NCBI RefSeq assembly: GCF_013402915.1
Contig: NC_050724.1
Location: 248,001 to 312,000, forward strand
Source: Zygotorulaspora mrakii
Lineage: Eukaryota; Ascomycota; Saccharomycetes; Saccharomycetales; Saccharomycetaceae
Direction: 5' to 3'
DNA length: 64,000 bases
Position numbers and translations under genes: made by a program. The notes under the pieces were generated by a model, which ran no database searches, was not told the origin of the DNA, and saw only the letters and a list, made by a program, of their open reading frames with translations. Below are positions 45,933 to 59,006 of the stretch, piece after piece (position 1 is the first letter of the stretch; each line of letters begins with the position of its first letter).

Positions 45933-47250
45933 ATGTCAACTAGGCCAATTTCTGAGACCATTGCATCTTTCATTCGATCATCAACGAGGATCAAAAGACT
46001 TGGGATTTCCAAATCACCTGTTGTAGATACACGTTGCAGAATTTCTGAAAAAGATGTGTCGAATGTTTCAGCCGCACCTACAGCACTGTCGATGTTTGAA
46101 ATTGTACGCCGGCTACCCAATATGTTTCCAAGAAGTCTAGCTGCATCGTTCAAAGATTTTAATGATATCAGAACTCATGGTGATGAAATGTTCCAGCAAG
46201 AATTATTAATGACGCTCCCATTTTATGGAAAAGATAACTCATCGAAAATGGCCGAAATAATAAAAACAAATGTAGATACCGAAGGAAATTATATCAACGA
46301 GTTTTGTATCATACCTAGGTCTGCTGCTCATGAGCCGCCTCTAAACTTGAAACATCTCATTTTCATTCATGGCTATGGTGCTGGTTTGGGTTTTTTCTTG
46401 AAAAATCTTGAGAATATTCCACTATTAGATGATAAATGGTGCATTCATGCAAGATTTGCCTGGATACGGATTCTCTTCCCGTTCGAGATTCCCATATCAT
46501 TATCCCACAAGCATCGTAAGCGACGTTCAAGATTGGTTTCATCAAAAACTCTACAGGTGGTTCGAGAAAAGAGGACTCCTGATGAATCCGGAAAACAACC
46601 TAATTATGGCACATTCTTTAGGTGCATATTTGATGTGTCTTTACGCTGCGAAGTATCCTGACCACTTTAAAAAGATCATAATGTGTTCACCTGCTGGAGT
46701 ATGTCATTCCAATTTGAACAAAAAACTAGGAAATACACGTATTCCCTGGTGGTATACTAAACTTTGGGATAGAAACATATCACCGTTTAGCTTGGTGAGA
46801 AACGCGTCACAATTAGGGTCCAAAATCACTAGTGGCTGGACATACAGCAGATTTAGCAAAGTTTTAAGTGAGGGAACTCCTCTTAGTGTACAGCAGTTTG
46901 AAGCATTGCACAGATATGCGTATTCAATTTTTAACCAACCTGGATCTGGTGAGTATTTGCTTAGTTTTGTATTGAGATGTGGTGGTTCTCCTAGAATTTC
47001 GTTGGAAGATCAAATTTTCAAAGACTGCAATAACGGAATTTATCAAAGCAATTGTGAATGGCTATGGATGTATGGAGAAACTGATTGGATGGATATAACA
47101 GGAGGATTTCGTGTATCTGATATGCTGAACCGATATTCAAATAAAGAACGGAGCCACGTTTGCATAGTTCCAAACTCAGGGCATCATTTGTACTTTGATA
47201 ATTACAACTACTTCAATGAAGTGCTTATCAACGAAATGAAAAGTATGTAG
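45933..47250 (+). pseudogene. CLD1: CLD1 (cardiolipin-specific phospholipase) broken by a frameshift
   Basis: Two overlapping frames together cover a full Cld1 (about 438 codons; S. cerevisiae 445). The first (from 45933) holds the N-terminus and 'LIFIHGYGAGLGFFLKNLENIPLL', the alpha/beta-hydrolase HG(Y)G oxyanion region, then loses homology after 'DKWCIHA' at about 46449-46451. The second resumes one base later (GAT at 46453, '[14 protein letters not shown]') and carries the nucleophile motif 'AHSLGAYL' (GxSxG-type), the acid region and HX4D ('HHLYFD'). So there is a net +1, that is one extra base or two missing. Cld1 removes palmitate from new cardiolipin in mitochondria before Taz1 remodelling. 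No splice sites explain it. Either a recent pseudogene or a base error. Confidence 0.85.
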
Positions 47251-49819: not shown

Positions 49820-49908
49820 TCCTTGTTAGCTCAGTTGGTAGAGCGTTCGGCTTTTAAGCTAAAGCGAGGATAACCGAAATGTCAGGGGTTCGAGCCCCCT
49901 ATGAGGAG
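49820..49908 (+). tRNA. tRNA-Lys(UUU) with a 16-nt intron
   Basis: Exons match S. cerevisiae tRNA-Lys(UUU): TCCTTGTTAGCTCAGTTGG...CTTTTA and ACCGAAATGTCAGGGG...ATGAGGAG, mature length 73 nt. The intron, about 49857-49872, begins one base 3' of the anticodon. It is 16 nt against about 23 nt in S. cerevisiae. It is followed by a T-rich Pol III terminator (CTTCTTTTTTATTTTTTT). Confidence 0.96.
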
Positions 49909-53588: not shown

Positions 53589-53967
53589 TTAATTCCAAAG
53601 CGCTTGTGCGACTTCATTGAGGCAGCCATATTTTTTGTTCTTATACTTGCTGTTTGTCACAGTGCCCCAGTCAAGGGATTGACCTTGCCTCTTGTTCTGG
53701 ACCATATTGTGATAAATTGATTGACCTGAAAGAGTGGATGAATACTGGTCAAATAGGCTCTTCATATAATTTCTGACCTCATCTCTGTTGTATGATTGCT
53801 TTGCAGATTTCTTTTTGTTGTTGCTAGATGTGATTGGTTTACTTGATGCTGAATTCGATTGCGATGTTGTTTTGTTTCCTTGGGAAATAGGCGATGCTGT
53901 GTTAGATCTTGACTTTTGCAATTGTTGCTGCTGCTGCTGCTGTTGTTGTTGTTGTTGTTGTTGTTGA

Positions 53968-54000
<33 letters not shown>

Positions 54001-54158
54001 CGCTGTTGCGTTTGTGACTGCAGTTGCGGTTGCGTCTGCGCCTGCGATTGCGTCTGTTTGGGCAACGACCTTGCAGCTGCCTGTGCCCAACCTGTCAGTT
54101 TCGTCCTTTGAACGTTGCCGCCAGTTTTTGCACTAGCTGTCGTAGTTGAAGCCATCAT
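53589..54158 (-). CDS. PBP4: PBP4, Pbp1-binding protein
   Basis: 189 codons from the ATG at 54158; a second ATG follows at once (54155). The two ends carry the family: N-terminal 'KLTGWAQAAARSLP' (about 22-35) and C-terminal 'YNRDEVRNYMKSLFDQY' plus 'DWGTVTNSKYKNKKYGCLNEVAQAL'. Both are close to S. cerevisiae Pbp4 (185 aa). Between them is a long poly-Gln/His tract (about 50-85) coded by CAA/CAG repeats. Pbp4 binds Pbp1 (ataxin-2 homologue) and joins stress granules. Its promoter region is shared with FBP1, now separated by the hAT element. Confidence 0.9.
53923..54009 (+). repeat. CAG/CAA-type (TTG/CTG on plus strand) repeat in PBP4
   Basis: A near-pure run of TTG and CTG triplets on the plus strand, encoding the poly-Gln/His tract of PBP4. 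Likely polymorphic. It explains several long antisense frames with low-complexity Ala/Val. Confidence 0.9.
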
Positions 54159-54422: not shown

Positions 54423-54430
54423 CCAACTTT
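54423..54430 (+). repeat. left 8-bp target-site duplication of the hAT element
   Basis: CCAACTTT directly abuts the left terminal repeat and is repeated exactly at 57419-57426 after the right terminal repeat. An 8-bp duplication is diagnostic of hAT transposition. Confidence 0.95.
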
Positions 54431-54451
54431 CAAACTTGTTCACCGAGTAAC
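54431..54451 (+). repeat. left terminal inverted repeat of the hAT element
   Basis: 21 bp starting CAAACTTGTTCACC; exact reverse complement of 57398-57418. Confidence 0.95.
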
Positions 54452-54660
54452 CGGGTAAAGAAAACAACTTACTCAGTAATAATGAGTAAGTAAATCGTCC
54501 TGTGAATAACCCACTCATCGTAAACAAAACAAGTTACTTTTTATGAAGGCATTGTATACGAGTTGAGTAACCCAAGTATTATCGTCCATAATGAGATTTA
54601 TGATATTTGGATTAAGAATGTGAAATGAAATATCTACGATGACGGTGGCCTTCTCATAAT

Positions 54661-57066
54661 TTACATAGCTGAGCCAGGTGTATTAATGCCCTCTTGAGAC
54701 GTAAGCCTTGCAGTTGCAGCACTGTCATCTTGGCTGTCATGCATTTCCTCAGAACTGTCTGATAGGTAACAATCTATGTCATTGTTTTCATTATCAAGGT
54801 CGAGGTCTGTCTCATTTTCTGAGTCTAGCACGAGAATCGGAGAAGGCTTGTAAAAGCCAAATTTCGAAAACCGATCTCTTAAAAGCATTAGAGTTTGTAC
54901 ATTCTTATAATGAAGCCGTGCTCTGTCTTTCCTAACCACTCTTCCCGCAAGAGAAAAGCAGCGCTCTACATCACATGAGCTTACTTTGGTGTATAACAGA
55001 GACATGGCTAGCTTGAAGAGAGATGGATACTTGCAGCGATTTGCGTGCCACCATTTTATTGCGTCAATCCTGGACAGACCACTTGCCACTGGCTCACTTT
55101 GGTATCTGTGCCATTCCTCAAGATTTTCATTAACGTCGCATACTGAGGCTGTGGAATATGTTTCGGTGGGTTGCGGTTGTTCATGAACATTAAAGCATCT
55201 GTAATAGTCTTCCTCTCGCCCGATAGTTGAGAGCTCCGGGCTTGCTTGCTGCCCATTACCTAGCTCAACGCCTTCTTCGTTCAAGTACATTCTAATAAAA
55301 TTGTTAACTTGGTTCATCCTTAGATTGAACTCATCAATTTCCATCATTCTGTAAAGCTGCTCGTGTTTCGCCGTTGGATCGAGCATGACGGCCGCATAAT
55401 ACAATGGGTTAGCCTGAATGTGTGATAAATAATTTTGATAGCATAAGTATGCGACGTTGATGGCTTCAAGAACAATATTCTTTTCATCAAAGGACAATGT
55501 ATCGGGGCCGTTTAGAAAAGAGAAATCCATACCTTTTTTAGATTTAGGAATTTCCTTTCCCGTGGATACGTTCAGGCAACTCTTGTAAAAGTGTCCCAAA
55601 AGGTAGTATAAAGGAACTCCTTGAGGTAAATTGTTATATTCTTCATCTTGGAACTTTTTGTTCACGTAATCAAAAATCTTGCCGCACTCAACAAAATAAG
55701 CTAACATATTGATGGTTTTAGAATCAAACGAAATATGATCTTGAATCCTCGTAACTAAATGGTCTTGACCACGTTCCTGTACGAGTCCAAGCCAATTCTT
55801 GTAGGCTTTGTAATTTTCTAAGAATATTTTGACTTGCTTCCATGTAAAAAGCCACCTAGTGGGAGACTCATAAGGAATTAAAGGTAAATTATTCTTTTTC
55901 AGACTGGAGTTGATTGCGGTTGAATATCGCATTATTTTTGCTAGCTTTCTGATCTTTTTGAAGGCATTAGAGAAAAGAGAATTCCGGGACAAGCTTTTGA
56001 TAATCCTTTGAAATTGCAGATTCAAAACATGACTCGCACAGCGTATAAAACGAACTTTTCCAACCAGCCGATGGCCTCTTGGTCTAAGTCCATTAAAATG
56101 ATCGTATATTAGATTAACGTGAAAGTTGCCATTGTTTGAAGCGTTATCCATAGTGATGGTTCCGAGTTTATCAACAAGATCATATTCCTCCATTACAGAC
56201 ATGAATGTATCACACATATTCTTGCCCGTATGTTTCTTGTCCCCTAAACTAACAAAATCGAGTAAATGAGTGTTGCTCGCTTCACCGTGTATATTTAGTA
56301 ATAACCTTGAACCATTGCTGGCTTCAAGTAGCTCTTTGTTCAAAATATTTGGAGCAAAAGATACCATAATGGCAAGAAAAGACTGACTGTTACCTGCTGT
56401 CCATATATCCAATTGCACGTTGACTAGAGTGGTATCTTTCAAATTTTGCCGCAGAGTATCATTGAGACAGTCTCTAAAATGCTGTATCTTTTTAGTCAAT
56501 GTAGTCCTGGACTGAATGAACGTGTTTCCCCCATATTTTCTATTGAGATGGCTCCAAGTACTTAAACGGACAAAATTGAAAGGAAGAAATCCCTCCGTTA
56601 TTAGAAGTAAGCTCTCCAAAGTACCTGGATGTTTGTTGCATTCTCGTATCAATGCCTCTGTTAAGTGAAGTGATTTAGAAGATTTTGACATTGTATCCAG
56701 TGTCTGCATTTTGAGAACTTTTTTCTCTTTCAGCACAGAACGATGTACAGCCGTTATATGTTTTGACAAATTCCCAGTAGACTCACCTTCTTTGTAAGTC
56801 TTCCCACAGTAATTGCACCTGGCAACTTTCCTCCCATGCTTGAAAAAAAACTGAAAATGCGATTTAAATGAAGATCTTCCCATCCATCCAGATGTAATCT
56901 TTTTCTGCTGCTCGGATTGATTAGCGTTCGAAGTTGAAGCTATCACGTTCTCATTTGGAGGAGTTAAGGGTTCTGAGGAGCTGCAATGCGCCAATGGTGT
57001 GTTCAACGGCATCGTCTGCTCCACAATTGTGACCTCATCATCACTTGATGACTCCAAGCTCGGCAT
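54661..57066 (-). CDS. hAT-family transposase, intact
   Basis: 801 codons. In order: a Ser/Glu-rich N-terminus; a BED zinc finger (C84-x2-C87 ... H103-x4-H108, 'VARCNYCGKT...NLSKHITAVH') for end binding; and an RNase H-like catalytic core. The core has D220 ('LDIWTAG'), D307 ('TITMDNASNNG') and the hAT C-x2-H motif C343-H346 ('RCASHVLNL'). The RW motif follows ('SPTRWLFTW', W405). The C-terminal hAT dimerisation domain includes W672-W673 ('KWWHANR') and 'SSCDVERCFSLAGRVV' with E701, the likely third catalytic acid. All expected residues are present with no stop or frameshift. Related families in Saccharomycetaceae include both mobile and domesticated copies; the intact ends here argue for mobile. 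Confidence 0.95.
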   Translation of the reverse strand: MPSLESSSDDEVTIVEQTMPLNTPLAHCSSSEPLTPPNENVIASTSNANQSEQQKKITSGWMGRSSFKSHFQFFFKHGRKVARCNYCGKTYKEGESTGNLSKHITAVHRSVLKEKKVLKMQTLDTMSKSSKSLHLTEALIRECNKHPGTLESLLLITEGFLPFNFVRLSTWSHLNRKYGGNTFIQSRTTLTKKIQHFRDCLNDTLRQNLKDTTLVNVQLDIWTAGNSQSFLAIMVSFAPNILNKELLEASNGSRLLLNIHGEASNTHLLDFVSLGDKKHTGKNMCDTFMSVMEEYDLVDKLGTITMDNASNNGNFHVNLIYDHFNGLRPRGHRLVGKVRFIRCASHVLNLQFQRIIKSLSRNSLFSNAFKKIRKLAKIMRYSTAINSSLKKNNLPLIPYESPTRWLFTWKQVKIFLENYKAYKNWLGLVQERGQDHLVTRIQDHISFDSKTINMLAYFVECGKIFDYVNKKFQDEEYNNLPQGVPLYYLLGHFYKSCLNVSTGKEIPKSKKGMDFSFLNGPDTLSFDEKNIVLEAINVAYLCYQNYLSHIQANPLYYAAVMLDPTAKHEQLYRMMEIDEFNLRMNQVNNFIRMYLNEEGVELGNGQQASPELSTIGREEDYYRCFNVHEQPQPTETYSTASVCDVNENLEEWHRYQSEPVASGLSRIDAIKWWHANRCKYPSLFKLAMSLLYTKVSSCDVERCFSLAGRVVRKDRARLHYKNVQTLMLLRDRFSKFGFYKPSPILVLDSENETDLDLDNENNDIDCYLSDSSEEMHDSQDDSAATARLTSQEGINTPGSAM

Positions 57067-57397
57067 TTCCCTTGGATATGAGAATGGCGAGGGATGTCTT
57101 TCTGAAGTACTACTTACTCGATATCAAATGGATCGAAAACAACTAATGTGAAGCAATGGCGGCAACGCATCATCTACAGACGCGTAACTGCTATCCGACT
57201 ATACAAATCTTGAACAGAAATAACTAAAGTTAGTGCAGGGAATAGGTGGAGTCATGTGATACAATGTTTTTGAGTAGTTGGTGGGTAACTCTTTTATACG
57301 AATCAGGTAACTCTAATTCTTTCACGTTATATATGATATGTATTCGAGTTACCCATCGTGCTGAAGACTAGGTACTTAATGTAGTTACGTACATAGT

Positions 57398-57418
57398 GTT
57401 ACTCGGTGAACAAGTTTG
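57398..57418 (-). repeat. right terminal inverted repeat of the hAT element
   Basis: 21 bp, exact reverse complement of the left end. Confidence 0.95.
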
Positions 57419-57426
57419 CCAACTTT
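57419..57426 (+). repeat. right 8-bp target-site duplication of the hAT element
   Basis: CCAACTTT, identical to 54423-54430. The target locally reads as part of a small palindrome (CCAACTTTCCAGAGTTGG). Confidence 0.95.
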
Positions 57427-57965: not shown

Positions 57966-59006
57966 ATGCCAACAGCCACAGGACAACCACTCAAGGAAGA
58001 TTTCGACACAGATATCGTTACGTTACCAAGATTTCTTCTGGAATCGCAAAAATGTGCAAAAAATGCCACCGGTGATTTCACGTTGCTGCTGAGCGCATTG
58101 CAGTTCGCCTTCAAGTTTATATCTCAGACCATAAGAAGGGCAGAACTGGTTCATCTGGTGGGTCTTTCAGGGAGCTCCAACTCGACGGGAGACGAGCAGA
58201 AGAAGCTTGACGTCCTAGGTGATGAAATATTCATCAATGCGATGAAATCAAGTGGTAATGTCAAAGTACTAGTTTCGGAGGAGCAAGATGATCTGATCTT
58301 GTTTCCCACGACGACAGGCACATACGCCGTGTGCTGCGACCCTATCGATGGCTCTTCCAATCTGGATGCAGGTGTGTCTGTTGGCACGATTGTGTCTATT
58401 TTCAAATTGCAGCCAAATTCTACCGGAACGATTAATGACGTGTTGAGATCTGGCCTCGAAATGGTTGGTGCGTGCTATGCGATGTACGGCTCGTCGACAC
58501 ATCTGATGCTAACTACAGGTCAAGGCGTCGACGGGTTCACGCTGGATACAAGCATCGGTGAGTTCATACTTGTCTATCCAGATTTGCAGTTGCCAAGCCA
58601 CCGAAACATATATTCGATAAATGAAGGCAATTCGTTTTATTGGACTCCGTTGATTCGGTCCTTCATTGAGGAGCTTAAAAAGCCACATGAGAAGGACAAC
58701 GGCAAACCGTATTCTGCCAGATACGTTGGTTCCATGGTAGCTGATGTCCACCGGACTTTCCTTTACGGTGGTCTATTCGCTTATCCGGCTGATAATAAGT
58801 TACCCAACGGCAAGTTGAGACTCCTTTACGAAGCCTTCCCCATGGCGTTCCTTGTCGAACAAGCTGGTGGTGTTGCCGTTAATGATGAGGGTAAGAGAAT
58901 ACTAGAAATTATGCCAAACCATATTCACGATCGGACGTCAATTTGGATGGGTTCCACAGATGAAATTAATAATTACTTAAGGCATATTGGTAAACCTGAG
59001 TTATAG
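57966..59006 (+). CDS. FBP1: FBP1, fructose-1,6-bisphosphatase
   Basis: 346 codons (S. cerevisiae 348). It catalyses fructose 1,6-bisphosphate to fructose 6-phosphate in gluconeogenesis. Metal/phosphate motif 'DPIDGSSNLD' is at 125-134, with 'VSEEQDD' at 103-109 and substrate-binding 'ARYVGSMVADVHRTFLYGG' near 240-260 and 'KLRLLYEAFPMAFLVEQAGG' near 275-295. The N-terminal Met-Pro-Thr start is kept, so the Pro N-degron read by the GID ubiquitin ligase after glucose addition is probably conserved. The PKA site RRxS of S. cerevisiae (around Ser11) is not present: residues 5-13 read TGQPLKEDF. Upstream DNA now carries a hAT element. Confidence 0.97.
   Translation: MPTATGQPLKEDFDTDIVTLPRFLLESQKCAKNATGDFTLLLSALQFAFKFISQTIRRAELVHLVGLSGSSNSTGDEQKKLDVLGDEIFINAMKSSGNVKVLVSEEQDDLILFPTTTGTYAVCCDPIDGSSNLDAGVSVGTIVSIFKLQPNSTGTINDVLRSGLEMVGACYAMYGSSTHLMLTTGQGVDGFTLDTSIGEFILVYPDLQLPSHRNIYSINEGNSFYWTPLIRSFIEELKKPHEKDNGKPYSARYVGSMVADVHRTFLYGGLFAYPADNKLPNGKLRLLYEAFPMAFLVEQAGGVAVNDEGKRILEIMPNHIHDRTSIWMGSTDEINNYLRHIGKPEL

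Follow-up and report, generated by a model that had tools for sequence, protein, structure and literature searches.

Does the transposase gene in this window, the 64,000-nucleotide stretch of DNA that was analysed, belong to an element that has moved recently and might move again, or is it what remains of one? The initial annotation described positions 54423-57426 as an intact and recent hAT DNA transposon, possibly still mobile. Our analysis of the locus and of the whole genome leaves little doubt that this budding yeast carries an autonomous hAT DNA transposon, which has recently gained copies through cut-and-paste transposition.

Anatomy of the element and its ends

The element is real, but the span first given to it includes both target site duplications (TSDs). 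The element proper occupies 54431..57418, is 2,988 bp long and carries its transposase on the minus strand, and three other full-length copies in the genome terminate at identical bases. Its terminal inverted repeats (TIRs) are as perfect as had been claimed. The 21-bp left arm (54431..54451, plus strand), downstream of the transposase, is 100% complementary to the right arm (57398..57418, minus strand), upstream of it. This inverted repeat is CAAACTTGTTCACCGAGTAAC at both ends, and the element ends read CAAACTTG...CAAGTTTG. Perfect TIRs are found in all four intact copies, in line with the short TIRs of hAT elements. The proposed 8-bp TSD, CCAACTTT, is likewise present on both sides, at 54423..54430 and 57419..57426, and 8 bp is the sole length between 5 and 12 at which the flanks match.

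The annotated subterminal repeats could also be traced. GAGTWAC occurs six times in the element, and every occurrence falls in the 582 terminal bases that do not code; the number expected from window bases 1-54000 is 0.10, although the motif was chosen post hoc from the sequence and two of the six lie inside the TIRs. On the left (54445..54571, plus strand) the motifs start at 54445, inside the TIR, and at 54565; on the right (57285..57404, minus strand) they stand at 57285, 57307, 57346 and 57398, the last inside the TIR.

With up to three mismatches allowed, the 21-bp end has 11 matches in the 10.45-Mb genome, and all 11 are ends of copies of this element: ten belong to five full-length copies and one to a truncated copy. 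The same pattern read backwards has no match in the 10.45-Mb genome, which excludes chance. MITE-like derivatives with these 21-bp ends were not found genome-wide at up to three mismatches, a threshold at which more diverged ends would be missed. The GC content is 0.394 in the element and 0.398 in the remaining window, and the GC3 of the transposase is 0.405, compared with a range of 0.331-0.490 for six host ORFs. A signature of horizontal transfer, sought in these two measures, gave no sign either way.

Copies in the genome and their history

The genome (10,450,160 bases in 9 contigs) was searched with the whole element (7 matches), the 21-bp end (11 matches), the protein (20 matches, grouped into 12 loci) and the hAT domain family (8 matches). 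These searches score the best candidates only, and all copy counts are therefore lower bounds. At least four full-length intact copies are present: the window copy and those at C3:1146458-1149445, C6:101391-104378 and C4:98740-101727, which carry 0, 1 and 2 substitutions relative to it, respectively. All four are 2,988 bp long with an open 801-codon frame, and the C3 copy is identical to the window copy throughout. Two substitutions among the intact copies are coding, I591V and S734L, the latter present in one copy, and both alter the amino acid.

Additional copies sharing these ends with different duplications were what the initial annotation had suggested looking for, and the three copies above are of this kind. 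The perfect TSDs are 8 bp long in two intact copies (CCAACTTT in the window, GTTTATCA on C3) and 9 bp long in the other two (ATATATCCC on C6, ATTTACAGT on C4), and at every copy a single length from 5 to 12 gives a perfect duplication. Since an 8-bp comparison fails at six of eight positions in both 9-bp cases, these are not 8-bp TSDs with a lucky neighbour. The 1.5-kb flanks of the four copies have no mutual similarity at E 1e-3. No frame of at least 70 codons runs across the joined empty site, with one TSD copy removed, at any of the four insertions, and so none of them visibly interrupts a gene. Together, three further near-identical open copies with unrelated flanks and TSDs of their own point to recent cut-and-paste spread, rather than to segmental duplication or to one isolated domesticated gene, and they support the original reading of a recent intact transposon.

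Copies can also multiply by segmental duplication or ectopic recombination, and gene conversion of old copies could imitate recent transposition. Subtelomeric duplication happens in this genome and has carried an older copy of the element, but the intact copies each have their own perfect TSD and unrelated flanks, which conversion cannot create; it could merely make copies look younger. We consider such an origin highly unlikely, while gene conversion could be partly responsible for the near-identity of the copies. Segmental duplication of the four intact copies was rejected, there being no similarity outside the element.

Two older copies belong to the same family. L005 (C3:17498-20496) is full-length, with 93% identity, a broken frame and an 8-bp TSD with one mismatch, and L006 (C4:26785-27557) is truncated and lacks a TSD. 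A comparison of 1.5-kb flanks among the six family copies gave a single similarity, that of the right flank of L005 to the right flank of L006 (98.6% over 1,500 bases). Between the subtelomeres C3:19715-29900 and C4:26785-36960, a stretch of at least 10,190 bases is 98.2% identical. On the C4 side this similarity seems to stop inside L006, so that the duplication may have a transposon at its edge. In the element piece shared by L005 and L006, 55 of 794 alignment columns differ (gaps included), whereas the adjoining flank differs by 1-2%; part of this piece lies at the broken edge.

The remaining six loci hold decayed and more distant relatives, at C3:28964-30617, C4:36036-37759, C4:861475-862543, C4:1229293-1230180, C5:401595-403057 and C8:214190-215264. 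Their similarity ranges from ~68% DNA identity (C8) down to ~20% protein identity; most have several stops, and they represent other hAT lineages. No flanking inverted repeats with duplications were found around these six loci in a search for 10-base exact ends. At least eight hAT loci in the genome are broken. Relatives were also sought in viral contigs, where none of 4 pattern matches was confirmed, and in bacterial and archaeal contigs, where none of 19 was.

Comparison of the window copy with L005 over 794 codons, with 4 stop-containing codons omitted, gives a dN of 0.039, a dS of 0.098 and an omega of 0.40 (Fisher p 4e-6); the non-coding divergence of the pair is 0.080 (46/576). Against L006, omega is 0.73 (p 0.41), indistinguishable from 1. 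Between L005 and L006, both dead, it is 1.01, on just 178 codons and 28 changes. The plain reading of these sequences is that the transposase was under purifying selection in the past, a test of modest power with good support from L005 and a neutral outcome for L006, and that its lineage was probably kept functional while older copies decayed. At the S. cerevisiae mutation rate of 1.67e-10 per base and generation, the three private substitutions over the four intact 2,988-bp copies correspond very roughly to 1.5 million generations, assuming a star-like history and ignoring gene conversion.

Purifying selection on the frame is also what one would see if the transposase had been domesticated, that is, if the protein were retained for a host function and its ends were relics. 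Domesticated hAT genes do occur in yeasts: Kat1 of K. lactis is one, and RSF1 and possibly VID22/YGR071C are others (PMC2675101, in the part accessible). However, an active transposon lineage likewise shows purifying selection before a burst, and domestication predicts a single conserved locus with decaying ends, not a set of nearly identical, full-length copies in unrelated places, each with perfect ends and a TSD of its own. The lone-copy scenario under which the initial annotation would have had to be abandoned is thus contradicted by four dispersed copies, and we regard domestication as extremely improbable. A gene of the Kat1 type, at a single locus without mobile ends, was considered as a candidate and dismissed, given four full-length copies with perfect ends.

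A more serious alternative to present activity is that the four copies spread recently but have since lost the protein's function or its expression. The copies have started to acquire substitutions (0, 0, 1 and 2), the two coding ones alter the protein, and the broken loci indicate that hAT families in this genome do die. The open frame in every intact copy and the complete identity of two of them argue in the other direction, and we hold such a recent death or silencing to be possible but rather unlikely. Judged from its sequence, the element is likely to be still mobile today. It is tempting to speculate further that this is a currently active, self-sufficient hAT family in a yeast of the Torulaspora/Zygotorulaspora group, that its transposase joins the ends to target strands spaced either 8 or 9 bp apart about equally easily, and that the border of the young C3/C4 subtelomeric duplication is likewise marked by its copies; for this broader picture as a whole we would put the chances as even. 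If true, this yeast would provide, within the Saccharomycetaceae, a live hAT element that occurs naturally and in a setting amenable to genetics.

The transposase and a possible mechanism

The transposase gene (54661..57066, minus strand) has 801 codons without a stop, as annotated. The BED finger and the dimerisation domain, both predicted before, score above their Pfam cut-offs. Residues 72-109 (56740..56853, minus strand) match PF02892 (zf-BED) with 35.5 bits against a cut-off of 20.6 (E 1e-8), and residues 653-731 (54874..55110, minus strand) match PF05699 (Dimer_Tnp_hAT) with 56.9 bits against 21.4 (E 1.8e-15). The dimerisation region and the N-terminal BED finger place the protein among hAT transposases; such a finger is common in the hAT superfamily, although not universal.

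The residues singled out in the initial annotation, D220, D307, E701 and C343-x2-H346, are all found at their positions. The best matches in a PDB search are four distinct Hermes-type transposase sequences (E 1.5e-13 to 2.4e-12), the two best-aligned of which span residues 556-736, surrounding E701. This residue (54964..54966, minus strand), the catalytic Glu, aligns with the Hermes-type transposases 4d1q and 2bw3. D220 (56407..56409, minus strand) is presumed to be the first catalytic Asp and lies in a D-x-W motif that is the counterpart of Kat1 D310-x-W312. D307 (56146..56148, minus strand), which we presume to be the second catalytic Asp, was assigned by motif and not by alignment. Residues 200-420 alone, the stretch with D220 and D307, have no PDB match up to E 10. 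The CxxH motif C343-x2-H346 (56029..56040, minus strand) is covered by a weak Hermes alignment (6.5 bits over residues 338-444), and has a parallel in Kat1, according to the available portion of PMC4763223. A single-sequence AlphaFold2 model of the transposase has a mean pLDDT of 34.6. A DDE-type core is thus presumed, with E701 placed by alignment to Hermes-type structures and the two Asp residues by motif.

We then propose, by analogy, that the whole element should work by a mechanism like that of Hermes and Kat1. The BED finger would bind the repeated GAGTWAC/GRGTAA motifs near both ends, and a transposase multimer would bring the two 21-bp ends together. The D220/D307/E701 active site would cut next to the element and leave the flanking DNA with hairpin ends; the 3' ends would then attack the two target strands at points separated by 8 or 9 bp, and gap repair would yield the TSD. 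Copy number could increase if the donor gap is repaired from a sister copy or if transposition takes place during replication. Subterminal repeats and BED fingers have a role in Hermes (PMC10368747) and in Kat1 (PMC4763223), for which the repeats matter, according to the parts of these papers that are accessible.

Known relatives and neighbouring loci

The hAT families Rover and Roamer were reportedly described in Saccharomycetaceae by Sarilar and colleagues in 2014. According to the accessible parts of the literature, both have been reported from several genera of this family with putative autonomous copies, so the rarity that the first description attached to such elements in Saccharomycetaceae was overstated. 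In the same sources, 38 Rover elements, some of them intact, are recorded in Torulaspora microellipsoides together with Rover MITEs, and Rover elements also occur in K. lactis and K. marxianus. Lachancea lanzarotensis carries 25 hAT copies, of which one is putatively autonomous, and in Kazachstania saulgeensis both Rover and Roamer are present as pseudogenes only. hAT elements are thus already known in related yeasts, and the one reported here is no new class of element. No description of hAT elements in Zygotorulaspora was recognised in a literature coverage that mostly excludes subscription papers, which is weak evidence of absence; in the accessible passages that name the genus, no such elements are ascribed to it.

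By description, Rover resembles the present element as a budding-yeast hAT family with intact and degenerate copies within one genome, but its MITEs in T. microellipsoides have no counterpart with these ends here (up to three mismatches). Roamer is also a budding-yeast hAT family; compared in the same way, its K. saulgeensis members are pseudogenes in the portion of the source available, whereas four intact copies are present here. The hATm family is reported to have 8- or 9-bp TSDs, a mix of lengths resembling that of this element, but its ends, TAGGGTG...CACCCTA, differ from CAAACTTG...CAAGTTTG (PMC6004678, as far as its text is accessible). Hermes of Musca domestica shares the BED finger, the hAT dimerisation region, the context of E701 (PDB E 1.5e-13 over residues 556-736) and the subterminal repeats, yet it is distant in sequence. 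Its TIRs are imperfect and its TSD is 8 bp, in the accessible text of PMC10368747, whereas the TIRs here are perfect and the TSDs are 8 or 9 bp.

A parallel in arrangement of residues is drawn with Kat1 of Kluyveromyces lactis, for which the accessible part of PMC4763223 is the source. D310-x-W312, C402-x2-H405 and E895 of Kat1 match D220-x-W222, C343-x2-H346 and E701, and F704, K713, R715 and R717 lie at the same offsets from E701 as Kat1 F898, K907, R909 and R911 from E895. R908 of the Kat1 basic group, in contrast, has D714 as its counterpart, and the second Asp of Kat1 is given there once as D328 and once as D377. Kat1 is described as a single host gene that has a programmed frameshift and acts on fossil ends at MAT. 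Unlike Kat1, the transposase gene reported here is part of a mobile element, whose perfect ends enclose it.

The host, likely of Zygotorulaspora or Torulaspora, is one more entry in the patchy record of hAT elements among yeasts, a pattern relevant to whether they spread by horizontal transfer. Class II transposons are scarce in Saccharomycotina, and four near-identical intact copies make this a good place to watch a yeast hAT element at work. A genome with four such copies is also suited to dating bursts and to asking what determines whether the target spacing is 8 or 9 bp.

In the window, the element lies 273 bp from the start codon of a 189-codon ORF with a long glutamine tract (53589-54158, minus strand), and 548 bp from the start of an ORF at 57966 (plus strand), which we take to be FBP1-like. 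Elsewhere in the genome, Hom_end_hint has four matches: a 1,063-codon ORF, presumably VMA1-like with an intein, a 591-codon ORF, presumably HO-like, and an 861- and 674-codon ORF pair on C3, presumably WHO-like. The HO-like and VMA1-like genes are at C7:198573 and C7:271027, and the WHO-like pair (C3:1040372-1043602) adjoins the only aldolase (FBA1-like) match of the genome, on its downstream side. WHO genes are known as a pair downstream of FBA1 in Zygotorulaspora mrakii, clusters of them are frequent in Torulaspora and Lachancea too, and only a few genera near Saccharomyces carry HO (PMC7282813, in the part accessible). The Atg17 protein of the host matches that of L. thermotolerans (4hpq) only distantly, which rules this species out as the host; Z. 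mrakii would be the best guess. Also in the window, two overlapping plus-strand ORFs in different frames (45933-46661 and 46429-47250) look, by eye, like two parts of a single alpha/beta hydrolase gene, separated by what could be a frameshift or an assembly error. ARAGORN, run in bacterial mode, calls a tRNA at 49820-49908 (plus strand) whose anticodon is left undefined; this may be a tRNA gene that contains an intron.
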